Shown in pieces: positions 1-64,000 of a DNA stretch of 64,000 nt; position 1 is the first letter of the stretch; the number at the start of each line of letters is the position of its first letter. The stretch is from Diploptera punctata (Eukaryota > Arthropoda > Insecta > Blattodea > Blaberidae). Both the position numbers and the translations under genes were made by a program. The notes under the pieces are model-generated. The model was given only the letters and a program-made list of their open reading frames with translations, searched no databases and was not told the DNA's origin. The stretch covers positions 46,169-110,168 of the forward strand of contig JASPKZ010009907.1 in the NCBI GenBank assembly GCA_030220185.1, given 5' to 3'.

Positions 1-1335
1 TGAGGAAAGGAAGCTCTTCCAGATGAATGGAAAGAATCTATTATTGTACCAATTTATAAGAAATGAGATAACATTGATTGCAGCAACTACAGGGACATCT
101 CGTTACTCTCAACTTCGTACAAAATTCTTACAAATTTATTAGTCAGCAGACTTACTCCTTATATTGATGACATTCTAGGAGATCATCAATGTGAATTTAG
201 AAGAAACAGGTCTACAACAGATCAGATTTTTAGTATAAGACAGATTTTAGAAAAGAAATGGGAATATAATGGTACCGTACATCAACTATATATAGACTTC
301 AAAAAAGCATACGATTCAATTAAGAGGGAGAAGTTATATAGTATCCTGCTGGAGTTCGGAATTCCTAAAAGTTAGTTAGACTTATACGAATGTGTCTAAA
401 AGGCACAAAGAGTAGGGTGCGTGTAGGTAAACAGTTTTCGGACACTTTTGAAATCCAGAATGGGTTGAAGCAAGGAGATGCACTATTTCCTCTACTATTT
501 ATATTGTACTAGAGCATGCCATTAAATCTCTAGAGTATGATGAAGGCCTACAACTCAATGGTATTAATAAGCTGTTAGTTTATGCTGATGATGTAGTACT
601 ATTGGACGATAGTGAGGAGGTACTAAAGGACAACACGCACACACTATTGAGTAACACTAAGGAATTAGGACTGGAAGTAAATATCCATAAAACTAAATAT
701 ACGGCTACACATAGAAATACATTAGGCCTATTCAAATACCTAGAAACAATAATCACAAATAGGAATGAGATGCAGAAAGAAATTAAACATAGGCTCAATT
801 CTGAAAATGAGTGCTATTATGCATTACAGATACTTTTGATGGCCCAACTCCTTTCAAAAAACGTTAAACTGAAAATAGCCTATAGGCTATATTAATTTAT
901 ATGGATGCGAAACATTGACTCTTGCTTTAAGGGAGTAAAGGAGATTACAAGTATTTGAGAATAAAGTACTTAGGAAAAATGTTTGGACCTAAGAGAGATG
1001 AACAGACAGGTGAATGGAGAAGACTACATAACAATGAACTACAATGTCTTTATAGGAAGTCAGATATAATAAGAACAGTTAAGTCACGTAGATTGCGATG
1101 GGCAGGACATGTAGTACGTATGGGGAATGAAAGAGATGCATGGAAGCTTCTTGTAGGAAAACCAGAAGGAAAACGCCCAGTTGGTAGACCAAGAATGAGG
1201 TGGAAGAATAACATTAAATATGATTGAGGGAAGTAGATTATACAGGGAATGATTGGAAAGCATTAGATCAGGATAGGGATGTATGGAGAGCTTATGTCCG
1301 CGCGGCCATGAACCTATGGGTTCGTTAGTACCAGT
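1..1335 (+). mobile_element. LINE-A non-LTR retrotransposon, 5'-truncated by window edge, dead
   Basis: Decayed reverse transcriptase ORF. The first bases read LPDEWKESIIVPIYKK, the usual start of a LINE RT. Palm motif A reads DFKKAYDS near 291-318, and the catalytic YADD box is at 581-592 (YADDVVLL). The C-terminal part (955-1227) contains GKMFGPKRDEQTGEWRRLHN and the RRLRWAGHVVRM segment seen in many insect LINEs. Several stops (e.g. after PIYKK) and a frameshift near 1220 break the ORF; the adjacent frame continues as VWRAYVRAAMNL. The 3' end is the conserved CCGCGCGGCCATGAACCT block near 1300 followed by 'CCAGTGAG'. The clade (RTE-like or other APE-type) is not resolved by reading alone. 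Confidence 0.85.
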
Positions 1336-1660
1336 GAGTAGGCTAAGTAAGTCATTATATGTTGGCTATATCTAATTATAGGCCTAAATTATAATTCTGG
1401 ATTTATCAACTAACTTATGATGTTACAATACAAATGACGGAATCACGTGAAGTGTAGTTGGTGGCATTAGAACACACACACATAGGCCTACACGTACACA
1501 CATTCATATTGCTGTAAAGCATTAAGGTATAATGTTTATTTTTGCTTGAAAGGTGCTACTGTCCGGCAGCTCATAATTTCTGCAGGTAGCGAATTCCAAT
1601 AAGGAGCTAGGTCACATGATAATACATTTTTTTAAATTTAATTCATGATAGATCTACAGT

Positions 1661-2079
1661 CCATCTCTGTGGTCTTTGGTAGCATCGCTGTCTCGTACGC
1701 AACGGGCCCGGGTTAGATCCCGGTAGGAATAAATTTCTTTGGTGATGGGTTTTTTGGGATTTTTCCTTACCTTAACCAAAACGGTCCCCAAATATCATCT
1801 GGCCATCATAATCATCTTTATCACACTCGTCATGTTTAGGGCCTAGTATGAATGTGTGAGTGTGAATATTGTGTTTCTTCTTAATGTTGTGATGTCTCGG
1901 AGGAGGTCCTGACATTGAGCTGATCACTCATTCGGGAAGGCTCTTTATGTCCCGTGTAATAAAAACGTATGTGTGATCCACAGTTTAAAATCCCTTTCTC
2001 GATAGGTGTTGCCACTTTAAGACCCGGGTGGTGTGTGGCATATAAAAAGTACCTATAAAGTGAGAGGTTAAACTGAGAT
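1661..2079 (+). mobile_element. SINE family S3, near full length
   Basis: A tRNA-like head holds an A box around 'TTGGTAGCATCGCTG' and a B box GGTTAGATCC at 1711-1720. A conserved body follows ('GATGTCTCGGAGGAGG', 'GAGCTGATCACTCATTCGG'), ending in 'AAGTACCTATAAAGTGAGAGG'. Other copies are at 13,318 and 16,290, with head-only or minus-strand pieces at 19.1, 29.2 and 60.6 kb. This copy carries TAGGGCCTA at 1837-1845 where the 16.4 kb copy has only TA. It is empty at 2050-2051 where the 13.6 kb copy holds TAGGCCTA. Confidence 0.85.
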
Positions 2080-2384
2080 GAAGAAAGAAACACAAATTGA
2101 AGATATGACGTTTTTATATCTTTGGAGCTTGTAAGTGTTTTGAAGTGTCCCCTGAGAACGCTACTAACGTTCTGCAGGGTTAGTCCTTTGGAGGGGCTGC
2201 CTCCTTAAAACCTCTGGACTTGCTTCCTTTTGTTTTATCCCCACAAGGAGGGTTGCCTCTTCCGTCTTCTGCCGTTGAGGACTTCACTCTTGTTTCCCCG
2301 AGCTGGGTCTCTTATTTCATTCCCAGAGAATGGGTTGCCACTGCCGCCATTTTCGCCGTTCCGATATAGCCTATATATATATAC
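2080..2384. other. Unassigned stretch between S3 and a LINE-B tail
   Basis: No family recognised. It has moderate complexity, pyrimidine-rich patches and a TAGCCTA near 2367. The only open frame (2230-2418) is short, has no recognisable motif and runs into the LINE tail. Confidence 0.4.
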
Positions 2385-2580
2385 AGAACAAACTGGAATG
2401 AACATTTGGCAAGGATGACTAAGTATAGAATACCAAAAGCAGCATACATCTATTCACCACGAGGAAGAAGAAGTTTGGGAAGACCAAAGAAAAGATGGAA
2501 AGAGCAGGAATTTGGAGTCGGAACAGGCTAGTAGGCCTAATTAAGCCTAAACCGTGAAGAAGAAGAAGAAGAAGATGTTT
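2385..2580 (+). mobile_element. LINE-B 3' end with GAA-repeat tail
   Basis: Translation gives RIPKAAYIYSPRGRRSLGR followed by PKKRWKEQEFGVGTG and a stop, the typical C-terminus of an insect APE-type LINE. A short 3' UTR runs into (GAA)n at about 2559-2577. The same C-terminus and GAA tail recur on the minus strand at 31.9-32.2 kb. A TAGGCCTA lies in the UTR. Only the last ~200 bp were inserted or survive, as expected for 5' truncation during target-primed reverse transcription. Confidence 0.8.
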
Positions 2581-63061: not shown

Positions 63062-63320
63062 TAATTGAAGATCTTCTTCGGTTATCTATTATCCCTCATT
63101 TTCATCACATGTCCCAGCCATCTTAATGGCCTTCGTTCAATACGATCGGTGATTGTTTCCTCTGCACCCATCCTATTTCTTATTTCCTTGCATGGGATTT
63201 TGTTCATTTTCTGCATGTATAATCTGGAACTTCTTCTCAAACAGTCCATTTTCAGGACCAAGATATTCAACTCCATTGATATCTTATTGCACCATGTTTC
63301 ATATAGCAAGTAGAGCCTAA
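63062..63320 (-). mobile_element. LINE-C C-terminal fragment
   Basis: On the minus strand CLRRSSRLYMQKMNKIPCKE, RNRMGAEETITDRIERRPLR and WLGHVMKM parallel LINE-C at 33.96-34.10 kb. Confidence 0.75.
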
Positions 63321-63414
63321 CTCATTCTATTATACTTCTACCAATCCTATTTTTTAATAGAATTTTTATTTCACAAAACCGAATTTAGACAACCAATTAT
63401 CTTACTTCTAGGAA

Positions 63415-63705
63415 ACCATATATGGTAAGAACAGTTAAGTCTCATAGAGTGCAATGCGCAGGACATGTGGCACGAATGGGGATGGAAGAGGGGCGTGGAA
63501 GATTTTTGTAAGAAAACCGGAGGAAAACGCCCAATTGGTAGACGAAGAATGAGGCGGGAAAATAACATTAATCATGATTTGAGGAAGTAGATTATAGGCT
63601 AGAGGATGATTAAAAAATTAGCTCAGGATAGGGATGAATGGACAGCTTATGTTCGTGCGGCCATGAACCTGTGGTTTCGAGTTAGTTTGTTAGTAAGTTA
63701 ATTAT
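63415..63705 (+). mobile_element. LINE-A 3' fragment
   Basis: 'GGTAAGAACAGTTAAGTCTC', 'CAGGACATGTGGCACGAATG', 'TCGTGCGGCCATGAACCTGT', GTTA-type tail near 63,683-63,702. TAGGCTA at 63,595-63,601 replaces the TA of 21,563-21,564. Confidence 0.88.
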
Positions 63706-63904
63706 CTTACTTTTTTGTTAGATTTTAAAAATAATCTCATTAGGCCTACTTAAAAACACTCCAAAATATTACACCTGATCTTATGGAATTAGTTTAATGC
63801 TTCAGTTAGCATAGGCTATGATTTGTTCCGTAAATCTGCAACAAGGAACCTAAGGCTTTACTTTGTTTCCAAATAAATCCGTAACTAGGATTTTATTTCT
63901 TAAA

Positions 63905-64000
63905 AAATGAAAATTTATAAGAGCATAATACAGAATATTTTGTCATATGTAAGTGAAACTTGGTCTTTGACGGAATTACAAAAGAATAAAATTAGAACAG
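63905..64000 (+). mobile_element. LINE fragment running off the window
   Basis: The frame MKIYKSIIQNILSYVSETW then SLTELQKNKIRT matches the K-IYKS-I-P-L-YG-E-W-LT segment that lies between the RT core and C-terminus in LINE-B/C. Confidence 0.7.

Follow-up and report, generated by a model that had tools for sequence, protein, structure and literature searches.

Short G/C insertions at TA sites form islands in the genome of the cockroach Diploptera punctata and are best read as probable excision footprints of a putative GGC-ended transposon

The stretch of DNA analysed here (the window; 64,000 bases of Diploptera punctata, bases 46,169–110,168 of contig C9373 in a genome of 3,123,318,691 bases and 10,165 contigs) contains 124 exact copies of the palindrome TAGGCCTA, in which GGCC lies between two TA dinucleotides. 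In 200 dinucleotide-preserving shuffles of the window the mean count was 0.95 and the maximum 5, which rules out chance or base composition as the source of the excess, and no one-substitution variant of the word reaches more than nine copies. The original prediction that this word is massively over-represented is therefore sound; its count of 33 in the first ~10 kb becomes 32 in the first 10,000 bases on recounting. The supposition that the filler is always GGCC is not upheld, as GGC, GCC, GGGCC and GGCCC are inserted too: the window holds 47 copies of TAGGCTA, 40 of TAGCCTA, 13 of TAGGGCCTA and 10 of TAGGCCCTA. An unbiased scan of all TA-N(1–8)-TA words returned the same five fillers as enriched, along with one-letter decayed forms (GGTC, GACC, GGCA and GGCG), simple repeats, overlaps of adjoining motifs and a small number of further words, ACT among them. 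The five words, referred to below as footprints, total 391 on the whole contig of 110,168 bp, about one per 280 bp or 3.5 per kb. By these five-motif counts the window (1–64,000; no strand is assigned to this or to any footprint) is a section of a footprint island, the contig being dense throughout except in its last few kb.

Each footprint class is a derived insertion at a TA that leaves two TAs with 3–5 G/C bases between them. On the contig, 66 of the 391 footprints can be assessed, because the repeats that contain them align well with a copy from non-island DNA. For 41 of these 66 a copy that is empty to the exact length was found in non-island DNA (4-nt class, 25/39; 3-nt, 14/24; 5-nt, 2/3), and for none was a shared copy found; in the underlying pairwise comparisons, 187 cells are empty, none is shared, 112 are 'other' and 19 have the same length. 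Control words of the form TAN3–5TA, from which simple repeats and decayed forms were excluded here and in the junction test below, are empty in 31 of 568 cases and shared in 171 of 568 (empty: TAN4TA 22/206, TAN3TA 8/206, TAN5TA 1/156; shared: 66/206, 66/206 and 39/156, respectively), and the footprints differ from them at Fisher p values of 1e-27 (empty) and 5e-10 (shared). Because exact length alone leaves TA retention open, a stricter count required a TA at the junction, which is present for 31 of 66 footprints versus 21 of 568 controls (p 8e-21). Confined to the window, the same test yields 17/55 empty and 0 shared footprints, with 18/430 empty controls. An insertion that duplicates a TA, as originally proposed, is thus supported, and so is the claim that unrelated repeats are hit and that the motif lies outside any repeat consensus, since none of the assessable footprints recurs in an aligned copy from outside the islands. 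The same absence of shared copies rules out the converse case named in the original prediction, an ancestral TAGGCCTA whose TA copies are later deletions, and the comparison likewise excludes the motif as part of one repeat consensus. A short inserted miniature inverted-repeat transposable element was also considered and rejected, there being no element body but just the 3–5 G/C bases between the TAs.

Seven sites named in the original prediction were printed and inspected by eye in nine comparisons: five sites are clean, one is acceptable, and one is clean on a single flank. The clean pairs of TAGGCCTA and TA are those at 13,597–13,604 in a repeat resembling a short interspersed nuclear element (SINE), with an empty TA in both of the copies compared (16,628 and 2,050); at 29,661–29,668, whose paralogue at 29,955 has an empty TA; at 38,784–38,791, with an empty TA in an inverted paralogue at 48,391; at 43,937–43,944 in a satellite-like array, empty at 44,411; and at 55,476–55,483 in a copy of a long interspersed nuclear element (LINE), where two window alignments have exactly the empty length. 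The comparison for site 48,336 is acceptable, and the two foldback comparisons of site 19,808 each have a single clean flank. Further examples include a second 4-nt footprint in a LINE copy (62,348–62,355; covered by two window alignments whose length is exactly that of the empty site), the 3-nt footprints TAGGCTA at 25,403–25,409 (exactly empty TA in a paralogue within 51,067–51,835) and TAGCCTA at 54,251–54,257 (four window alignments with precisely the length of an empty site), and the 5-nt footprint TAGGGCCTA at 43,622–43,630, which is present in one foldback arm and absent from the other. Three nested footprints can be read in the sequence, TAGGGCCTAGGCCTA at 24,763–24,777, TAGGCCTAGCCTA at 19,728–19,740 and TAGGCCTAGGCTA at 38,457–38,469, and suggest that a TA from one event was re-targeted by another.

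The product spectrum was measured in 136.7 kb of island DNA against a background of non-island DNA of the same genome. Excesses over background are +256 for GGCC, +81 for GCC, +66 for GGC, +24 for GGGCC, +20 for GGCCC and +19 for GC, and the decayed forms GGTC (+18) and GACC (+12) are also in excess; G, C, GG, CC, GGGC, GCCC, GGGCCC and GGCGCC show no island excess in this sample. Several small pieces (L151, L153, L154 and L184–L190) were assigned to the island set by motif density or position, and L152, with 5 copies of TAGGCCTA in 3 kb, was excluded from both sets. The spectrum from C9373 alone is the same: 224 GGCC versus 9.4 expected, 63 GGC versus 7.5, 68 GCC versus 9.4, 19 GGGCC versus 0, 17 GGCCC versus 1.9, 43 GC versus 26 and 36 GG versus 32.5. 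The fillers can be explained by two equal end overhangs: when 17 fillers made up of G and C only were considered and the likelihood of their excess counts was computed for all 340 overhangs of 1–4 nt, with mismatches assumed to be equally resolved, GGC was the best, 272 log units over GG, and GGGCC is enriched while GGGC is not. Telomeric TTAGG junctions were considered as a source and rejected, as T at position -1 is rare (14%) and the DNA sampled is free of GGTTAGGCC and GGCCTAACC fillers.

The insertions lie at TA sites whose flanks tend towards Y-R-T in both directions. After removal of simple repeats, flanks were available for 247 (4-nt), 157 (3-nt) and 42 (5-nt) sites, with 11,273 other TA sites as background. 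A pyrimidine (Y) stands at +1 in 73%, 77% and 74% of the three classes, respectively, versus 49% of the background, and YRT half-sites make up 20.9% of the 4-nt class versus 7.4%; a preference for T at +3 is significant in the 4- and 3-nt classes only. Control sets differ in profile, with Y at 40% at +1 and 62% at +3 for CA/TG, and at 60% at +1 for ACT/AGT. The footprint target resembles AYATATRT, and for Tc1 of Caenorhabditis elegans the target consensus is given as CAYATATRTG or AYATATRT (PMC9635669), while a palindromic AT-rich target is described for ZB and Sleeping Beauty (PMC7913693).

Genome-wide, TAGGCCTA occurs 317,365 times and the word read backwards 12,303 times. The backward word contains a CpG, so the expectation of ~27,000–28,000 from order-1 and order-2 Markov models of non-island DNA is the fairer comparison. 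On the two strands TAGGGCCTA is found 23,599 and 23,914 times versus 5,300–5,900 expected per strand (~4-fold), and TAGGCTA 190,876 and 191,113 times versus ~117,000–139,000 (1.4–1.6-fold). The word TAGGGCTA is not enriched in the genome (22,342 and 21,890 versus 23,400–28,900 expected). The excesses over Markov expectation, ~290,000 for GGCC, ~100,000–145,000 for GGC and GCC together and ~36,000 for the two 5-nt words, lead to an estimate of at least 400,000 scars in the genome.

These scars are clustered in islands of roughly 50–150 kb, and the window lies inside one. The motif had been described as pervasive, but an even spread is not supported: 17 stretches of 10 kb taken at round positions in other contigs contain 14 copies of TAGGCCTA in 170 kb, versus 42 in 20 kb of C9373 (20 and 22 in two 10-kb stretches). 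Contig C22, sampled in 18 pieces of 2.5 kb, has 0–2 of the five motifs per sample up to 480 kb, followed by 5, 3, 5, 8, 10, 9, 3 and 0 between 510 and 680 kb; 2 were counted in a stretch of 10 kb at 200 kb of the same contig. Among the first 100 places listed for TAGGGCCTA, concentrations occur in contig C2 near 0.73, 0.87 and 1.06 Mb, in contrast to contig C1 with 25 in 3 Mb, and the first 100 TAGGCCTA places listed on C1 are over-dispersed (variance/mean 2.3, p 0.0004). In top-20 lists, the k-mers enriched in islands are almost only footprints and GA/TC repeats; GAGAGAGA occurs 191 times in 110.5 kb of island DNA versus 28 times in 197.5 kb of non-island DNA, a ~12 times greater density. GA/TC microsatellites lie in the window at 14,438–14,560, 19,417–19,472, 27,874–27,967 and 62,207–62,263, and their density may mark island chromatin or come from a few long arrays.

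Host repeats of different age allow the activity to be dated roughly. With identity measured against the 197.5 kb of non-island DNA only, footprint density on C9373 is 1.8/kb (27 motifs) in repeats that share 88% identity or more with a non-island copy, ~3/kb in repeats at 72–88% identity and 4.0/kb where no copy was found, whereas every age bin of non-island DNA has 0–0.4/kb. The most similar DNA of the contig contains 4 motifs in 2.5 kb at 96–98% identity and 0 in 0.7 kb at 98% or more. The contig has 100 TA sites per kb, and the density in young DNA therefore corresponds to ~2% of TA sites being hit during a few per cent of substitution, so that the event rate per TA would, as a rough estimate, be of the order of the per-site substitution rate. 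Old DNA has just about twice the density of young DNA, and activity in this island was thus probably recent. In Periplaneta americana, Tc1-Mariner and hAT elements are reported to be more abundant at 5% Kimura divergence (PMC12774602), which would fit but concerns another species.

We consider it probable that TAGGCCTA and the related words are footprints left by the excision of a Tc1/mariner-type cut-and-paste transposon with the ends TA-GGC...GCC-TA. Its transposase would cut 3 nt inside each end, and the vacated site would be left with a GGC 3' overhang on either side. Pairing of these overhangs over 2 nt (GC/GC) and fill-in would generate GGCC, pairing over all 3 nt, with G opposite G in the middle, would give GGC or GCC after correction, and pairing over 1 nt as a C:C mismatch would give GGCCC or GGGCC. 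As GC pairs with itself, the 4-nt product would be dominant among those of a GGC overhang. In Sleeping Beauty the mismatch-type products are CAG and CTG, which GGC and GCC in the cockroach genome would parallel. Sleeping Beauty and mariner transposases are described as cutting 3 nt inside the ends to leave 3-nt 3' overhangs, and the likeness extends to the duplicated TA and the few transposon-end bases between the TAs; end-joining footprints and local hopping are also described for Sleeping Beauty (PMC7827188). The original prediction had found no described system to match, but the products and the target do match excision footprints of TA-targeting cut-and-paste transposons. Unlike Sleeping Beauty and mariner, the cockroach system combines putative GGC ends, a dominant 4-nt product, a 5-nt product, at least 400,000 scars, islands and a donor that was not recognised. 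The most speculative step concerns the islands, which may be neighbourhoods where a low-copy element hopped locally for a long time and left a cloud of scars; one local hopper per island would need just an ordinary transposition rate to account for them.

Several observations weigh against this interpretation. The 5-nt footprints exceed the 2–4 bp described for the Tc1/mariner superfamily (PMC7913693). For 25 of the 66 assessable footprints there is no length-exact empty copy, their cells being 'other' or 'same length' from alignment slips or further changes. The addition of G at each end would likewise yield GGCC, GGC and GCC. The TAGCTA excess of 19, with Y at 68% at +1, is unpredicted by a GGC overhang; among ten assessable TAGCTA copies 5 are shared and 1 is empty, so most are not insertions of the footprint kind, and among 17 of TAGGTA/TACCTA 2 are empty and 2 shared. 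Roughly 2-fold excesses of TA-ACT-TA (38 versus 14, C9373 versus non-island DNA) and TA-AGT-TA (28 versus 15) are likewise not accounted for by it, and possibly represent another footprint type or a repeat.

The search for a donor also counts against it. When the 110-kb contig was scanned for inverted ends flanked by TA, most thoroughly for TAGGC...GCCTA spans up to 10 kb and with part of the hits studied singly, neither a donor nor a resident copy was recognised. Among the window's 164 filtered open reading frames, the 142 that were scanned gave no match to a transposase family at E 0.01; seven matched reverse transcriptases and six other families had one member each. A first look at the whole genome gave 8,171 Transposase_1 and 17,112 DDE_3 candidates, of which 150 each were scored; matches above the cut-off occur in both, many with open frames, and none of the 300 lies in a known island. 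Mariner copy L195 and the Tc1-like pair L196/L197 have ends that by eye are unlike GGC. The Tc1-like pair begins near CAAAACAATTAGAGGAAC, and frames of 353 and 383 codons are open in many members of the genome's large Tc1-like and mariner families. Recurrent TAGGC termini were rejected as donor ends: the largest cluster, GGCTCAATTCTGGAAA with 10 members, is internal to a LINE, and three further clusters also look internal because their upstream flanks align (four clusters were inspected and ten others listed only). No donor was recognised among 77 candidate insertions interrupting a known repeat.

Among the host repeats of the window, a LINE that plays no part in the mechanism has an open reverse-transcriptase frame on the forward strand (33,477–34,283), with matches at 60–65% identity to Periplaneta americana and 94% identity over 55% of its length to Diploptera punctata, which indicates a blattodean host; no relative of the protein was found in viral contigs. 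Five tRNA-like genes of Asp and Cys type lie in repeats at 29,561–29,926 and 45,938–47,177, some in an inverted pair with 133-nt arms that are 95% complementary (45,907–46,039 and 47,076–47,208), and are probably SINE units of tRNA origin in an inverted arrangement. Several long-armed foldback elements are present at 43,420–43,794 and 19,776–20,149 of the window and, outside it, at 31,676–32,405 of C9373; some of them are close to perfect and may be young for that reason. A hairpin repeat with CTGTAGGCCGTGGTCTTGAGG lies at 45,512–45,728, with variants in other contigs, and contains a TAGGC that is internal to the repeat.

The origin of the islands can be viewed in two ways within the footprint interpretation. 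The footprints could be the same, with islands arising by insertion preference for a chromatin domain, whether open or silenced as in a small-RNA cluster, and no local hopping, which is a variant of excision by a GGC-ended transposon and not an alternative to it. On its own we would give this variant somewhat less than an even chance, and it appears about as likely as local hopping. The island near 1.06 Mb of C2 is fitted equally well by a block (negative log-likelihood 229.95) and by humps (230.74 and 231.80), so that local hopping is no more than a guess; the dense GA/TC arrays and the lack of a recognised resident element in the 110-kb contig are also as a preferred domain would have it, although little beyond footprints and GA/TC repeats marks the islands in the top-20 lists, and the 2.5-kb samples of C22 rise and fall across ~150 kb. 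A more radical proposal dispenses with resident transposons: domains of 50–150 kb would be hypermutated from TA to TA-GG(C)C-TA at about the substitution rate, by a domesticated TA-specific transposase or a donor in trans that writes a templated GGC mark, which strikes us as rather unlikely.

It is also conceivable, but in our judgement unlikely, that no transposon is involved and that a TA-cutting nuclease, for example a domesticated transposase, makes 2-nt staggered breaks in chromatin domains, with fill-in duplicating the TA and a terminal transferase-like polymerase adding Gs to both 3' ends before joining. G addition at both ends would produce GGCC, GGC and GCC, the GC excess of 18.7 fits independent addition (20.7 expected), clustering could follow from a chromatin rule, and the failure of a donor to turn up in the 110-kb scans would be natural. 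However, independent addition predicts ~12 GGGC plus GCCC in the island sample, where 3 are seen with a background of 2.3; genome-wide TAGGGCTA is unenriched, in contrast to the ~4-fold enrichment of TAGGGCCTA; GG and CC alone are without excess; TAGCTA sites are shared more often than empty; and a fixed addition of two bases would suggest a template. That selection or a host function maintains the palindrome, as a binding or methylation site, would have a precedent in the strongly over-represented short palindrome HIP1 of cyanobacteria (PMC4390886), yet appears very improbable given that the sites are insertions with a TA duplication and empty copies, that non-palindromic products occur at the same kind of target, and that forms decayed by substitution are in excess. 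Equally little credence can be given to an artefact of sequencing, polishing or assembly: the sites are known from a single assembly, but a regional pattern, a greater density in older host DNA, decayed forms and a flanking target preference all argue against it.

A comparison with known systems places the excision footprints of a GGC-ended TA element in context. Tc1 of Caenorhabditis elegans leaves a 4-bp palindromic footprint, TACATGTA, which differs in sequence and is without excess here (1 versus 3.8 expected). In a genome-wide comparison of DNA-transposon excision in rice, eight of 94 putative excisions were perfect and most had deletions or fillers with a mean of 13 bp (PMC4423477), in contrast to the uniform 3–5 nt filler in the cockroach, where the tests used are blind to excisions with flanking loss. 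The likeness to HIP1 is limited to massive over-representation of a short palindrome, and the cockroach motif differs as an insertion with target duplication, 3- and 5-nt variants and islands in an insect genome. Motif scans of viral and prokaryote sequences returned at least 120 viral stretches with doublets, while triplets were present in 11 stretches of viral and 27 of prokaryote origin. Among 150 fetched loci the highest density was 1.8 footprints/kb, versus 3.5 in C9373. It belongs to L080 (a virus-like IMG/VR contig of 7,152 bases), which is 56% G+C and has 8 copies of TAGGCCTA and five 3-nt forms. The two of the 150 loci that were inspected in more detail, L029 for spacing and L125 for sequence, are tandem repeats. 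Among the literature matches listed for TAGGCCTA and related topics, titles and the beginnings of abstracts contain no account of such islands, and no wider absence is claimed.

Thus, the motif is real and derived, and is best read as footprints of a GGC-ended TA element that are unusually dense and concentrated in certain regions. Events of this class are known; what seems new, at least to us, is their scale, their grouping into islands and the set of products resolved here. If this interpretation is true, excision of one transposon type would rank among the main causes of small insertions across parts of a 3-Gb genome, and the scars would form a fossil map of element movement long after the copies have left. 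Local hopping, the birth and death of islands and the repair of transposon breaks would become testable by counting words of 7–9 letters, and word-based analyses such as those of restriction sites, motif scans and repeat divergence would be distorted in such genomes.

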